In this document: positions 7,636-14,010 of the stretch, piece by piece
Layout: each line of letters starts with the position of its first letter
Numbering within the stretch: the first letter of the stretch is position 1
Source of the DNA: Bacteroidia bacterium
GTDB taxonomy: Bacteria; Bacteroidota; Bacteroidia; B-17B0; Aurantibacillaceae
Assembly (NCBI GenBank): GCA_016787785.1
Contig: JAEUTO010000006.1
Coordinates: forward strand, 558,001-622,000
Reading direction: 5' to 3'
Length of the DNA: 64,000 nt
Translations under genes and position numbers: made by a program
The notes under the pieces: model-generated
What the model was told of the DNA's origin: nothing
The model's database searches: none
The model's input: the letters and a program-made list of their open reading frames with translations, nothing else

Positions 7636-7720
7636 ACTCCTTCACAGGCAACCGAAGTCTAGCGTGTTGCATTCCCCCGTTTACCTCCAGATAGCCGATT
7701 AAAAACTGCGGGTAACAAAC

Positions 7721-7752
7721 TTTGTTTTATTTAAAAAAAATGAGCATTTTTG
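7721..7752 (+). promoter_or_regulatory. Probable promoter of the first TPR gene
   Basis: A -33 TTTG (7721-7724), 20-bp spacer and -7 CATTTTTG (7745-7752, one mismatch to TAnnTTTG) place the transcription start near 7759. That rules out the TTG at 7750 as a start and favours the ATG at 7771. Confidence 0.4.
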
Positions 7753-7770
7753 ACTTACACCTTGTCAAAA

Positions 7771-9123
7771 ATGAAATCCTTTTTGAGATCAACGCTGTTA
7801 GTTCTTTTACTGAATTTGGTATTTCAGCAAAGCGCATTTTCTCAAAACAAAAAAATAGATTCTCTAAAGCTCGTACTTAAAAGCGAAAAGGTAGATACAG
7901 CAAGGCTTTCGTTGTTGATTGCGTTGGCGGATGAGTCTACAATTTTTGATTCAACTATGAACTATTTAAATACTGCGGTGAAGCTGGCAGATAAATTATT
8001 GATCGAGAATAGGGAAAATTCACCGGCAATAAAAAAAAGCATACTCGCTAATAAAGCTGCAGCATTTCACCAAATTGCCTATGAAATAGAGAAGCGTGGT
8101 AATGTAGAGGAAGCTATACTTTATTGGGAACGATCGTTAAAAATAAGTGAGGAGATAGGAAATAAATTAGAAGCGGCTTATACACTTGGTAGCATTGCTT
8201 ATGTTTATACTACTCAACACGATTATCAAAAGGCCATTGATATTTATTTAAGAAACCTGGATTTTTACCTTAAGATCGGAAATAAGGCAAAAATTGCAGA
8301 TATGTATAATAACCTTGGTGTGATGAACAGGCAGTTGGGCAATGTAAACGATGCTTTTAAGTATTGGGAGCGTTGTCTAAAAATGCAGGAAGAGCTTGGC
8401 GATAAATTTGATCTGGGTATTACACATTATAATATGGCTATGGCATATATGGATAAAAAAAATCTGGATAAAGCCTTGGATCACTATTTTAAAAGCCTTG
8501 ATATGAACCGGCAGATAGATGATATAGACGGCGTGTCGCTTGCGTTGAGTGGTATTAGCGATGTTTATTGCGAGAAAAAAAATTATAATATGTCTCTTGC
8601 ATACATTGACAGTGCATTGACCTTATCAAAACAATTAGGGCTGGCGAGTAATTTAAAAGCAACAGAAAAAGTGGCATATAACGTTTTTGCCGCTGCCGGT
8701 GATTTTAAAAAAGCTTTTGTACATTACAAAGAATATGTGAAGTATGCCGATAGTTTAACGAATGAAAAAACACGCAAAGCGACTATAAAAAACCAATTAA
8801 AATTTGAATACGAAAAAAAAGAGGCCATTATTAAGGAGCAGCAGGAGAAAGAACGCGCTGTTGCAGAGGAAAAAGACAGGTTTCAAAAAATAGTTATTTT
8901 ATCGGTTGTAGTTGGTTTATTATTGGTACTGGTGTTTGCTGTTTTTATTTTCAGATCATTAAAAGTTACGAAGCAACAAAAACATATTATTGAAGAAAAG
9001 CAAAAAGAGATCCTTGATAGTATTCGTTATGCAAAGCGGATCCAGAATTCTTTATTACCTACCGATAGGTATATTGATAAAGTGCTTTCAGGGAATAAGA
9101 AAGACGGCAATGCGAAGCATTGA
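7771..9123 (+). CDS. TPR membrane protein, SpoIIE-less paralogue 1
   Basis: Starting at the ATG at 7771 the 450-residue protein has a signal peptide (MKSFLRSTLLVLLLNLVFQQ, cleaved near FSQ), then about five TPR units (for example KAKIADMYNNLGVMNRQLGN), a helical segment rich in E and K, one membrane helix (IVILSVVVGLLLVLVFAVFI), and a juxtamembrane coil KQKEILDSIRYAKRIQNSLL. In Bacteroidota signalling proteins this last motif normally leads directly into a SpoIIE/PP2C phosphatase domain; here the protein stops about 25 residues later with the tail KKDGNAKH. The tail and stop codon are encoded by a REP-like hairpin (9109-9123), so the phosphatase part appears to be missing or lost. It is probably an envelope sensor or scaffold. 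Its paralogue is at 10596-12077. Confidence 0.85.
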   Translation: MKSFLRSTLLVLLLNLVFQQSAFSQNKKIDSLKLVLKSEKVDTARLSLLIALADESTIFDSTMNYLNTAVKLADKLLIENRENSPAIKKSILANKAAAFHQIAYEIEKRGNVEEAILYWERSLKISEEIGNKLEAAYTLGSIAYVYTTQHDYQKAIDIYLRNLDFYLKIGNKAKIADMYNNLGVMNRQLGNVNDAFKYWERCLKMQEELGDKFDLGITHYNMAMAYMDKKNLDKALDHYFKSLDMNRQIDDIDGVSLALSGISDVYCEKKNYNMSLAYIDSALTLSKQLGLASNLKATEKVAYNVFAAAGDFKKAFVHYKEYVKYADSLTNEKTRKATIKNQLKFEYEKKEAIIKEQQEKERAVAEEKDRFQKIVILSVVVGLLLVLVFAVFIFRSLKVTKQQKHIIEEKQKEILDSIRYAKRIQNSLLPTDRYIDKVLSGNKKDGNAKH

Positions 9124-9226
9124 GCGGGGAGGGTGCGTTGACTAGCAAAAAATCTTTTTATTTATTTTTCGCCTTACTTTTCGGCTAAGGAAAAGTAAAG
9201 AAGAAAAATTGTGCTGCCGCACAAAG
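9103..9226 (+). repeat. 124-bp dispersed repeat, copy A
   Basis: It matches 13816-13939 with only about three differences over 124 bases. Parts in order are the hairpin CAATGCGAAGCATTG, the G-rich tail AGCGGGGAGGG, an AT-rich stretch, a 9-bp stem TTACTTTTC / GAAAAGTAA, and the end GCCGCACAAAG. The first 21 bases are the last codons and stop of the TPR gene. Confidence 0.85.
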
Positions 9227-9395
9227 CTGGCCCAAAGTTCGCGCAGATTTGTAATCCCTGCGTTTATCTTAAAATTCCAAATTATTTAGTCGCACTACAT
9301 TAGCCTTTAGTCTAAAACTTAAGCGCAAGCAAAACTATTGCTCAAAGCTACCGATAAATGCCTATTTTCGCGGCTTAATTTAAAATCAGATCGAA

Positions 9396-9926
9396 ATGAA
9401 AAAAATAATTTGCATTGCCATCATTGCCTTAATGAGTTTTAGCAGCTGTATGTATGTTGGCTTCTTTGGTAAACGTCCGCTTTATTTAGTAGGCGCACCC
9501 GATGATATACAAGTAAAACACAATGGCAAAAAGATAGATGTAAAAGAAATAACCATGGCAAATTTTGTTACACAACAGCATTCAGCCAACGTAAGAGAGA
9601 AAACTAAGTTTCGCCATCCGGCAGCATTAATAAAAGTAAGAAGCAAGAACAAAATTGAACTTACTTCAGACGGTAAAACAGCAACTGTTGATGTGAAAGG
9701 AAAAGCCGGAAAAGGAATACTTTTTTTGGTGCTTGAAGCCCCAATTACATTAGGTATTGGAACAATTGTTGATCTGGCCACTGTTTCTTTTTTCTACCCG
9801 GCTTCAAAATATGTTGATGTTAAAGCGGCATTTACCAATACAACACCTAAAACCAAAAAAGAGTTGTACAATATTGCTTTAGAAAATTCGAGCAAAGAGG
9901 TTACAACTGAAATAAGAACAAAATAA
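9396..9926 (+). CDS. Small predicted lipoprotein of unknown function
   Basis: The 176-residue product starts MKKIICIAIIALMSFSSCMY, a lipoprotein signal with the lipobox FSSC (cysteine 18), so it should be lipid-anchored in the outer or inner membrane. The rest (PLYLVGAPDDIQVKHNGKKI and following) is beta-rich, with one hydrophobic stretch near residues 109-135 (GKGILFLVLEAPITLGIGTI) that may be a membrane-embedded or buried hairpin. I do not recognise a named family, although short lipoproteins of this layout are common in Bacteroidota. It is followed after 2 bases by another secreted orphan, so the two probably form an operon. Confidence 0.75.
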   Translation: MKKIICIAIIALMSFSSCMYVGFFGKRPLYLVGAPDDIQVKHNGKKIDVKEITMANFVTQQHSANVREKTKFRHPAALIKVRSKNKIELTSDGKTATVDVKGKAGKGILFLVLEAPITLGIGTIVDLATVSFFYPASKYVDVKAAFTNTTPKTKKELYNIALENSSKEVTTEIRTK

Positions 9927-9928
9927 GA

Positions 9929-10552
9929 ATGAAGAGTTATATCCTGGCTTTAATTTTTCTTAGCTCCTGTTTTAATTTAATTTCTCAAAATATTAAATAC
10001 ACAGGGCTCAGTAAAATTTATTACTACAAAACAGTAGATCGTTTTTTTGCTCACAAAAAAGATTCGTTTGTAGGCAAGGATATGGTTTACAATTACGGAA
10101 AACTCTCTTACGTTGATGAAAAAACCAATAGAAAGATCAAATTCCGTCTTCATAAAGACTCTGCCATATTTGCATTTAGATTAGACAACGGTACAAGTCA
10201 TTCTCCAATTTACGCTATAAACAATGGTGAAAAAAGATATGGCGTTTACATGGGTGGTAGTAAAGACCTGTTCTTGGTTTTGTATTCTCAGCTTGATTTT
10301 TATAGCGTAAATTACGATAAAGAAAACTATGCTTTAGGATATGGAGGGGCAGTTAACCAGTTTGGTTATTACATCATGTTCACTAAAAAAGGTTTAATAT
10401 CTAAAAAGAATGGCAGTATAGAACACTTTATACAAGATAACGAAGAACTGTATAAAAAATATATGGACTTTAAAGCGAACGCCACAACGTATAACTTTAA
10501 TAAGAATTATGTGTCTATACAAATTGAATATTTGTATGCGTATAATCATTAA
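9929..10552 (+). CDS. Secreted protein of unknown function
   Basis: The 207-residue protein begins MKSYILALIFLSSCFNLISQ, an export signal. LSSC resembles a lipobox, but cleavage at ISQ is equally possible, so I cannot say whether it is lipidated. The mature part is rich in tyrosine, lysine and asparagine with beta-strand-like alternation and no motif I recognise. The start codon lies 2 bases after the stop of the preceding lipoprotein gene, indicating one transcript and possibly a joint role in the envelope. It ends at 10552, immediately before the promoter of the second TPR gene. Confidence 0.7.
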   Translation: MKSYILALIFLSSCFNLISQNIKYTGLSKIYYYKTVDRFFAHKKDSFVGKDMVYNYGKLSYVDEKTNRKIKFRLHKDSAIFAFRLDNGTSHSPIYAINNGEKRYGVYMGGSKDLFLVLYSQLDFYSVNYDKENYALGYGGAVNQFGYYIMFTKKGLISKKNGSIEHFIQDNEELYKKYMDFKANATTYNFNKNYVSIQIEYLYAYNH

Positions 10553-10584
10553 TTTGTGATCCGTTCCCGAAATGCTTACATTAG
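10553..10584 (+). promoter_or_regulatory. Promoter of the second TPR gene
   Basis: A -33 TTTG (10553-10556), 20-bp spacer and -7 TACATTAG (10577-10584) mirror the promoter at 6653-6684. The ATG at 10572 lies inside this promoter, so translation more likely starts downstream at the TTG at 10596. Confidence 0.5.
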
Positions 10585-10595
10585 TAATACATTTC

Positions 10596-12077
10596 TTGAG
10601 AACTAAAAACGTCATATCCACTCTTCTTCTTGCGCTTTTATTACAAGGGCGGTTATTTTCACAAGATAAAAATCCTGTAGTAGATAGTCTGCAAACTCTT
10701 CTGGCGAAAGCCACGCACGATACTATTCGTTGTGCTTTGCTCAACCAAATGATAGAAGCTGAGAACGATGATAAGATCTGGCCGGCATATAACGTAAAAT
10801 TAAAAGCTATTTGTGAGAAGAATATAAAAAGTAATGGTCCGTATACCAATACATTTTTAAGTTACATGGCCCAGGCCAATGGTAATGATGCTTTTTTAAA
10901 ATTGCAGGAAGGTAAAGTTACCGAGGCTTTAAAAAGCTATAAAGAGAATTTAGACATCCAGCAAAAGATAGGGGATAAGGGCGGCATGGGTAGCACCTTT
11001 TATGCCATTGGCGTTATTTACCAGAATCAGGGCGATGCACCCGGCGCATTAGAATATTATTTTAAAAGCCTGAAGATACAGGAAGAGATAAAAGATAAAA
11101 AGAACATGGCCTATACCTTAAATATTATTGGCATCATGTATAAAGAGCAGGGCAATTACGCTAAAGGACTCGACTACTATTTTAAGAGTTTAAAGCTTCG
11201 CGAAGAAGTAAAACATAAAAAGGGAATAGCGCAATCATTAAATAATATTGGCGGCGTATTTATGGAATTGCATAATACTTCAAAAGCCTTTTATTATTTT
11301 GAAAAAAGCTTAAAGATGCAGGAAGAGGTGAACGATAAAATTGGGATGGGTTATTCATTAAGTAATATTGGAAGGATCTATGAAACTATGAATGATAACG
11401 AAAAAGCTTTGGCTTCTTACAACAGGGCCTATAAGATACTTGAAGAGGCTGAAGATAAAGAGGGGATGAGCAATGCGCTGTACAATATTTCTGCATTATT
11501 ATTTAAGACCGGTAAAACCGGCGAAGCATTAAAACTTGCTGAAAGATGTTTGCAACTCTCGCAGAAATTAGGTTACCCCGACAAAATAAACGCGCCCAGT
11601 AATTTATTAAGTAAAATATATTTTAAGAACGGAGATTACAAAAAAGCCTACGAAATGCAAGTGCTCTATAAACAAATGGACGACAGTATCAATAAGGTTG
11701 TCAACCGAAAAGCTATTGCACAGAAAACATTTCAGCATGCTTACGAGAAAAAAGCAGCGCAGGATAGTTTACGGGTTCTTGAAGAGAAAAAAGTTGCGGC
11801 ACTTGAATTAAAGCAAGAGAATAACAGGGGGTATTTTTTATATGGCGGTTTGGCGCTGACTTTATTGTTTGGTGTTTTTATGTTCAATCGCTTTAGGGTA
11901 ACGCAAAAGCAAAAGAAAATCATTGAAGATCAAAAATTAGTTGTTGATGAAAAACAAAAAGAGATCCTTGATTCTATTCGATATGCAAAACGGATACAGG
12001 ATTCTTTATTGCCTACAGACAGGTATATTGATAAGGTTTTATCAGAGAATAATAAAGACGGCAATGCAAAGCATTGA
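10596..12077 (+). CDS. TPR membrane protein, SpoIIE-less paralogue 2
   Basis: I choose the TTG at 10596: it gives the signal peptide MRTKNVISTLLLALLLQGRL cleaved near FSQ, and the ATG at 10572 overlaps the predicted promoter. The 493-residue product has an N-terminal helical region, about six TPR units with the repeated pattern ALEYYFKSLKIQEEIKDKKN, a membrane helix (YFLYGGLALTLLFGVFMF) and the coil VDEKQKEILDSIRYAKRIQD. As in paralogue 1, the protein ends shortly after the motif SLLPTDRYIDKVL, which normally precedes a SpoIIE phosphatase, and its last residues KDGNAKH come from a REP-like hairpin. Such proteins are typical envelope sensors; the partner phosphatase is not encoded beside it. 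Confidence 0.85.
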   Translation: MRTKNVISTLLLALLLQGRLFSQDKNPVVDSLQTLLAKATHDTIRCALLNQMIEAENDDKIWPAYNVKLKAICEKNIKSNGPYTNTFLSYMAQANGNDAFLKLQEGKVTEALKSYKENLDIQQKIGDKGGMGSTFYAIGVIYQNQGDAPGALEYYFKSLKIQEEIKDKKNMAYTLNIIGIMYKEQGNYAKGLDYYFKSLKLREEVKHKKGIAQSLNNIGGVFMELHNTSKAFYYFEKSLKMQEEVNDKIGMGYSLSNIGRIYETMNDNEKALASYNRAYKILEEAEDKEGMSNALYNISALLFKTGKTGEALKLAERCLQLSQKLGYPDKINAPSNLLSKIYFKNGDYKKAYEMQVLYKQMDDSINKVVNRKAIAQKTFQHAYEKKAAQDSLRVLEEKKVAALELKQENNRGYFLYGGLALTLLFGVFMFNRFRVTQKQKKIIEDQKLVVDEKQKEILDSIRYAKRIQDSLLPTDRYIDKVLSENNKDGNAKH

Positions 12078-12133
12078 AAATCGAAATAGATTTCCAACTC
12101 ACTTTAACAAATAAGAAAAATATCGGATTAATC

Positions 12134-12174
12134 TTTGCCGTTACTTTTTGTGTCAAGACAAAAAGTAAGGCAAA
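12134..12174. terminator. Hairpin between convergent genes (possible bidirectional terminator)
   Basis: TTACTTTTTGT (12141-12151) pairs with ACAAAAAGTAA (12158-12168). GCC/GGC and TTT/AAA pairs extend the stem across one bulged G. It lies between the converging TPR and channel genes. Its core resembles the TTACTTTTC / GAAAAGTAA stem inside the 124-bp repeat. Confidence 0.5.
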
Positions 12175-12218
12175 AAAATAATAAAGAGATTTTTTGTAGT
12201 TAAATCTAACCGCTCACG

Positions 12219-13772: not shown

Positions 13773-14010
13773 GAATAATTTCTGAATTTAGTTTTGGTGT
13801 CACTTTTTGCCTGATGACGGCAATGCGAAGCATTGAGCGGGGAGGGTGCGTTGACAAGCAAAAAATCTTTTTATTTATTTTTCGCCTTACTTTTCGACTA
13901 AGGAAAAGTAAAGAAGAAAAATTGTGTTGCCGCACAAAGAAGGTCAATATGTTAAGGTATATTTACCTTTCACTAAAAGTGACGCCAAAGATTAAGTTTT
14001 CAGAAAATTC
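13773..14010. mobile_element. MITE-like unit with imperfect ~38-bp terminal inverted repeats
   Basis: The left end at 13773-13809 and the right end at 13973-14010 are imperfect inverted copies. The common core, read inward from the right end, is AAAAGTGACRCCAAA followed by TAA and CAGAAA. The unit is about 238 bp, encodes no plausible protein, and encloses copy B of the 124-bp repeat. It may be a non-autonomous mobile element or a large hairpin. No obvious target-site duplication was identified. Confidence 0.4.
13816..13939 (+). repeat. 124-bp dispersed repeat, copy B
   Basis: Copy B of the element at 9103-9226, with about three substitutions. Here it is intergenic and not part of a reading frame. 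It carries the GAA-loop hairpin (13821-13835), the G-rich tail (13836-13846) and the TTACTTTTC / GAAAAGTAA stem. Confidence 0.85.

Follow-up and report, generated by a model that had tools for sequence, protein, structure and literature searches.

TPR receptors that stop before the phosphatase domain and a helix-less SpoIIE phosphatase that occurs with them: a possible many-to-one signalling system in Bacteroidia

Chemoreceptors share a single CheA kinase, so that many receptors are served by one catalytic output. Here we describe a family of TPR proteins, from a Bacteroidia bacterium (GCA_016787785.1), for which a similar plan is proposed with unrelated proteins and with a phosphatase instead of a kinase. 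Two members of the family, called gene 1 and gene 2, lie in the window analysed, a stretch of 64,000 nucleotides (contig JAEUTO010000006.1, positions 558,001 to 622,000 of the forward strand), and positions below refer to this window unless a contig is named.

The closest described phosphatases are SiaA, of the SiaABC pathway in Pseudomonas, and the RsbU/RsbP-type PPM enzymes. The phosphatase domain of SiaA dimerises through helices 1-3 (PMC7647112), and the coiled-coil linker helix of RsbU dimerises and activates its phosphatase, with truncated RsbU coeluting with the full-length protein (PMC12143880). SiaA (NF038263; PDB 6k4e) is one chain, whereas in the system described here the catalytic part is separate from the receptor and its helix, one to many. 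Similarly, the RsbU linker acts in cis, whereas action in trans from many receptors is proposed below. The SiaA family is the only NCBIfam match at E 0.001 both of the stand-alone phosphatase subunit introduced below (125 bits) and of a fused relative (132 bits), scores that stay far under the 700 required for an equivalog. In NCBIfam the receptors best match the TPR sensor histidine kinases, of which FimS is one (NF053520; 85 and 113 bits, under the cut-off of 600), with the best stretch at 8-408 in gene 1 and at 180-415 in gene 2. Unlike FimS, no kinase domain was found in the receptors and their last helix is of the phosphatase type. Within the portions covered of the literature on TPR proteins, SpoIIE proteins in Bacteroidetes/Bacteroidota, and split phosphatases, there is no apparent description of this architecture. 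The features that define the two window genes are as follows.

7771..9123, + strand: gene 1, a phosphatase-less TPR receptor of 450 residues
9019..9102, + strand: phosphatase N-terminal helix retained in gene 1, with the receptor signature (SIRYAKRIQNSLLPTDRYIDKVL...), equated with the helix that precedes the phosphatase domain
10572..12077, + strand: gene 2, a phosphatase-less TPR receptor of 501 residues, not a sister of gene 1
11973..12056, + strand: phosphatase N-terminal helix retained in gene 2, with the receptor signature

Both genes encode TPR-membrane-helix proteins that stop directly before the position of the SpoIIE phosphatase domain. Gene 1 starts with the ATG at 7771 (the listed frame opens with TTG at 7750) and comprises a signal peptide and a membrane helix, each identified by eye, a TPR solenoid, and a C-terminal helix. 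The proteins share the end ...EILDSIRYAKRIQ(N/D)SLLPTDRYIDKVLS(G/E)N(K/N)KDGNAKH, followed by the stop codon, and carry the activation helix SIRYAKRIQxSLLP found in fused paralogues. The initial annotation, which saw both genes keep the coil that normally precedes a phosphatase and then stop with KDGNAKH, was correct in its reading frames and ends. Neither protein matched SpoIIE (PF07228) in a Pfam search, and neither thus has a recognizable catalytic PPM domain. A structure model of gene 1, made from 9 sequences (predicted local distance difference test score, pLDDT, 83.6; predicted template modelling score, pTM, 0.65), has the TPR solenoid, a long helix at 312-396, helices at 401-428 and 432-443, and a low-confidence tail at 445-450. 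The model of a fused relative (pLDDT 77.1, pTM 0.44) has a helix at 389-444 with strand 1 from 456, and the SiaA phosphatase domain (SiaA-PP2C, PDB 6k4e) aligns with this relative through the helix before strand 1. Taken together, the two models place the receptor ends at the transition from helix to enzyme.

Many such genes are present in the genome. The helix as a query gave 95 matches and PF07228 gave 64; pairing by position initially placed 60 helices before a SpoIIE domain and 35 without one, and the final count is 59 fused and 36 phosphatase-less genes since one of the 60 proved to be two genes. One of the 36 is a fragment in an 86-residue frame. Counted from the S of SIxYA, the phosphatase-less proteins end after 25-34 residues; three inner units of a 2085-residue fusion are the exceptions. 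Apart from these three units, the 1-kb stretches downstream of the phosphatase-less genes (33 of 36) were searched with the SpoIIE domains taken from all 59 fused genes; no relic of such a domain was detected in 32 of them, the window pair included, and the remaining stretch holds an intact SpoIIE gene, a split partner. A loose signature at a fixed place, [PT]-x-[ED]-[KRSN]-[YF]-[ILVM], is present in 36/36 phosphatase-less genes and 2/59 fused ones, although it was derived from the same data in which it was counted. Entropy is lower in the phosphatase-less than in the fused group in all three C-terminal segments. Over 630 pairs, silent sites are saturated (proportion of silent differences, pS, 0.79-0.80) and the proportion of non-silent differences, pN, is 0.13-0.29, values by which the family is judged to be under purifying selection.

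Some members occur in unusual arrangements. The 2085-residue open frame (G000:C14:98340-104597, where G000 is the genome of the window) contains four serial receptor units, the inner ones each with a signal-peptide-like stretch. Multi-unit frames also occur in relatives G011 (2412 residues with five helices, and 1053 with two), G006 (968, two helices) and G020 (1017, two helices). Elsewhere in the genome, fused SpoIIE genes are densely packed at G000:C6:276500-296000, and phosphatase-less receptors are scattered among them.

The distribution of the receptors was followed with a profile, A1, built from 32 of the 36 C-termini. Matches were obtained in 36 of 41 genomes (our genome and 40 relatives), with a best match that could be read in 30: 13 phosphatase-less, 16 fused, and 1 unclear. 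G011 was counted as phosphatase-less via a multi-unit frame and confirmed on a second reading; G031, with its best match in a 62-residue frame, is unclassified, and G026, G032, and G033 matched and are unread. In 395 genomes of the class, scored for at most 19 candidates per genome, 22 matched at 1e-17, with a phosphatase-less best match in 21 and a fused one in G129. The receptor-positive total is 28 genomes from 9 genera and seven families, with a phosphatase-less receptor additionally in G041, and the metagenome-assembled genomes (MAGs) ES-bin-35, nzgw122, and MGR_bin173 also carry such genes. The distribution, together with the C-terminal signature and the signs of purifying selection, supports a large, stable family of phosphatase-less sensors, which was one of two possibilities offered by the initial annotation.

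That annotation had also proposed looking for a separately encoded phosphatase, and this gave the main result. A SpoIIE gene of 236 residues (G000:C14:372403-373110; PF07228 match of 73.7 bits) begins METATETKNFFILYKPKDIVSGDFYY at strand 1, without the N-terminal helix, and 9 nucleotides upstream of it sits a receptor of 441 residues that ends SLLPSEKYIARNLQHLNKKP and has the helix. It is the only such enzyme among the 64 SpoIIE domains of the genome: 59 have the helix by search and 4 missed by the query show a similar helix by eye, so that 63/64 have it in cis. Used as a query against 56 genomes, hand-picked and not random, the gene has orthologues in 29 (open frames of 236-277 residues, 64-100% identity), and the stand-alone subunit, of 232-248 residues, is encoded by one gene per genome. 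The activation helix was found in cis in 0/29 of these orthologues. The next matches are at most 63% identical and in longer frames, apart from frames of 252 residues in G347, 265 in G011, and 337 in G067, of which the last was left unread. The short frames at G347:C22 (a receptor-negative genome) and G011:C63 were rejected as stand-alone enzymes as they have the helix in cis and are cut by the contig start.

The enzyme is invariant at 85/236 positions across the 29 sequences, with GD, DCTGHGVPGA, DG, and DD motifs in all of them. Between our genome and G018, G020, G386, G006, and G011, all of the same genus, it is 94-100% identical. The best matches of gene 1 in G018, G020, G006, and G011 reach only 45-51%, and no clear orthologue was seen in relatives (best 51%, 31 genomes at E<=1e-70); the genes that neighbour the window pair are 87-93% identical in G018 and G020. 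A conserved catalytic subunit beside such divergent receptors would fit a hub. The orthologue lies directly behind a phosphatase-less receptor in 11/29 genomes, with gaps of 4-57 nucleotides. Although the two adjacent genes share a frame in our genome, 2/11 adjacent pairs lie in different frames, which speaks against a general link by readthrough and makes separate translation the likelier rule. Our own receptor and enzyme locus (G000:C14:372403-373446) is near a gene that by eye resembles a Y-family DNA polymerase, and in G171 (C5:78072-78740) the SpoIIE match lies inside a reported open frame of 24,677 residues, perhaps through masked sequence or an effect of assembly.

The enzyme and the receptors occur together. 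The helix-less gene is present in 28/28 receptor-positive genomes searched and in 0/26 judged receptor-negative (Fisher p 5e-16, ignoring kinship). Two genera include both kinds of genome: in genus g1, 13 genomes have both and 16 have neither, and in genus g23 both are found in G272, G358, and G377 and neither in G129. Two further genomes, unsearched with A1, stand outside this count: G045, where the enzyme is present, and G046, which has no stand-alone match.

We propose that the sensors are interchangeable receptor subunits and that they share one catalytic subunit, to which each donates an activation helix in trans, a reading to which we give a probability of roughly 0.6. The window genes are typical of a large family whose members, predicted to be membrane receptors, each combine a signal peptide, a TPR solenoid, and a single membrane helix with a final helix corresponding to the N-terminal helix of the SiaA/RsbU-type PPM (SpoIIE) phosphatase in fused relatives. 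The family stops at the boundary of helix and strand 1, on this reading by design. The C-terminal helix, SIxYAKRIQxxLLPTEKYI, may dock on the shared subunit and complete its dimerising and activating helix in trans, a step made plausible by the precedents of SiaA and RsbU, and dozens of receptors would thus control one phosphatase. For the wider picture, of many-to-one signalling in which dozens of exchangeable TPR receptors per genome serve one highly conserved helix-less catalytic subunit, the odds appear to be even. The substrate may be a SiaC-like protein; this is a guess, made in a genome with 2 STAS matches and 8 SiaC-like genes, of which 6 lie no more than 3 kb from a SpoIIE gene.

Several observations weigh against this proposal. 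There is no receptor directly before the enzyme in 18/29 genomes, and the structure models are of single chains (gene 1 and the fused relative); physical pairing of receptor and enzyme is inferred. Kinship inflates the p-value for co-occurrence, and receptor status was assigned from one match in each genome, the best-scoring, which falls short of a full census. Of the 26 negatives, 17 were read and have a fused best match, and 9 are unread, either with weak best matches (G004, G005, G024) or classed by the 1e-17 cut-off (G042, G043, G110, G174, G204, G347). G041 and the three named MAGs carry receptors and are unsearched for the enzyme; G045 has the enzyme and no receptor in the 9 kb read, a genome-wide receptor search not having been made. 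In addition, the approximately unbiased (AU) test on the membrane-helix region rejects a single clade for the 36 receptors (p 0.0016), so the family either recombined or is not of single origin. Independent truncations are disfavoured because the signature is shared across receptors, and exchange of C-terminal modules is a likely, if unproven, compromise between the AU test and that signature. Finally, receptor clusters lie closer to fused SpoIIE genes than expected, with 5/20 within 2.5 kb against 1.6 expected (97/5000 placings) and, more weakly, 6 against 3.2 at 6 kb (450/5000 placings).

This nearness would also suit a different arrangement, in which receptors pair with fused TPR-SpoIIE paralogues through the helix that both groups possess and modulate or block them as dominant regulators. 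Locus L108 has the two kinds side by side, the phosphatase-less gene immediately after the fused one. Such pairing seems unlikely, given that receptor-negative genomes also have fused SpoIIE genes, that the occurrence of the receptors follows that of the helix-less subunit, and that the receptor signature is so rare among fused proteins. It is less probable still that the receptors have another output, with some other cytoplasmic protein bound by the conserved tail and the helix-less phosphatase simply carried along. The many enzymes that are not directly behind a receptor, and the EKYI signature, unlike that of fused proteins, would be accommodated by such a scheme; against it, the segment that receptors retain is the exact piece missing from the stand-alone enzyme, and the two are direct neighbours in 11 genomes. 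A third explanation regards the receptors as functionless, decaying or archival copies that gene conversion keeps similar to one another. It might account for the tandem arrays, the fusion of several units in frame, the single fragment, rapid turnover, and the apparent copying of a 3' patch between the window genes, yet pN far under saturated pS and an identical end point in 28 genomes of seven families make it very improbable.

Gene 1 and gene 2 have different nearest kin. In a tree that covers the 110 residues ahead of the helix and 24 more, gene 1 joins genes of contigs C14, C4, and C7 (98/100) and gene 2 joins an array at C10:545-552 kb (99/97), in a topology that is poorly resolved overall (17/92 inner branches starred). 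Over 7/8 segments, each window gene is merely the 6th-26th nearest of 34 or 35 to the other, and by these comparisons they are not sisters. The exception is the segment of 24 residues from SIRYA on, which is 96% identical between them (rank 1/35), with 83% identity over 66 nucleotides of its DNA. Since the last ~24 residues and the tail alone match best, the simplest account is that a 3' helix-coding patch, tail included, was probably copied between the neighbours. The copying would be old, because the last 34 codons contain 16 differences, 10 of them silent.

The tail itself belongs to a repeat that is dispersed in the genome, and the relevant features of the window are listed here.

9103..9226, + strand: intergenic repeat copy, its first 21 nucleotides being the DGNAKH tail and stop of gene 1
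12057..12077, + strand: 21-nucleotide repeat piece, the DGNAKH tail and stop of gene 2
13816..13939, + strand: repeat copy that matches 9103-9226 at 98% identity and does not follow a receptor gene
12127..12184, strand not assigned: strong hairpin 3' of gene 2 (-19.9 kcal/mol, z -6.5)

The last six codons and stop are GACGGCAATGCRAAGCATTGA in both genes (9103-9123 and 12057-12077). About 124 nucleotides of the element are present at gene 1, and only its first 21 at gene 2, after which the sequence diverges. This 21-mer has 4 exact copies in the 4.6-Mb genome and one with 2 mismatches; a reversed control has 0, which argues for a real dispersed repeat and not chance. A 20-mer search with at most 1 mismatch found it in 5/41 genomes, all five of one genus. 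Among the 12 loci read of the 18 repeat matches listed, only the two window genes use the repeat as a coding end, and at the other 10 the frame ending there is open for at most 51 residues. Given the single genus and the two coding uses among loci read, the tail is real, local, and shallow, and the KDGNAKH ends are probably a neutral addition from an intergenic repeat.

The initial annotation described the tail as encoded by a hairpin. A CAATGC-RAA-GCATTG repeat does encode the DGNAKH ends in both genes, but it supplies the last 6 residues only and does not account for the missing phosphatase. As an RNA hairpin it has little stability (-7.1 and -5.5 kcal/mol; z -1.7 and -2.4). The stronger hairpin at 12127..12184 is partly the inverse of 9146-9186 and may be terminator-like. 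REP/BIME elements are high-copy palindromic intergenic repeats with a RAYT transposase; the 21-mer has only the 4 exact copies in this genome. The other suggestion of the annotation, that insertion of a REP-like element truncated an ancestral fused gene before duplication, has only the two repeat-encoded tails in its favour and can be set aside: the tail is confined to the window pair, 34/36 phosphatase-less genes, close relatives of equal length among them, stop at that domain boundary without it, relics of the domain are absent in 32/33, and the pair are not sisters.

The locus is variable between relatives. The block 7637-12212 is missing in G020, where ~465 bp with another small frame is found between the same two neighbours (proteins 93% and 88% identical).

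9396..10552, + strand: two small genes between the receptors, of 176 and 207 residues, within the block that G020 lacks

Neither small gene has a Pfam match at E 0.01, and an Rfam scan of the window gave five transfer RNAs only at the gathering score. On the opposite strand, 12219-13181 matches the ligand-binding domain of pentameric ligand-gated channels (PF02931, 33.8 bits) and is 84-90% conserved in three relatives.

Linker helices are regarded as switches that act on PPM phosphatases from within the same chain. If the proposed donation of the helix in trans is true, a split between helix and strand 1 that is kept in seven families would identify the helix as a separable activating subunit and account for the way in which dozens of fast-evolving sensors can feed one output. 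The C-terminal ~50 residues of a receptor and the ~236-residue enzyme form a testable pair. Genes recognised only as TPR proteins by the family libraries searched would thereby gain a possible function.

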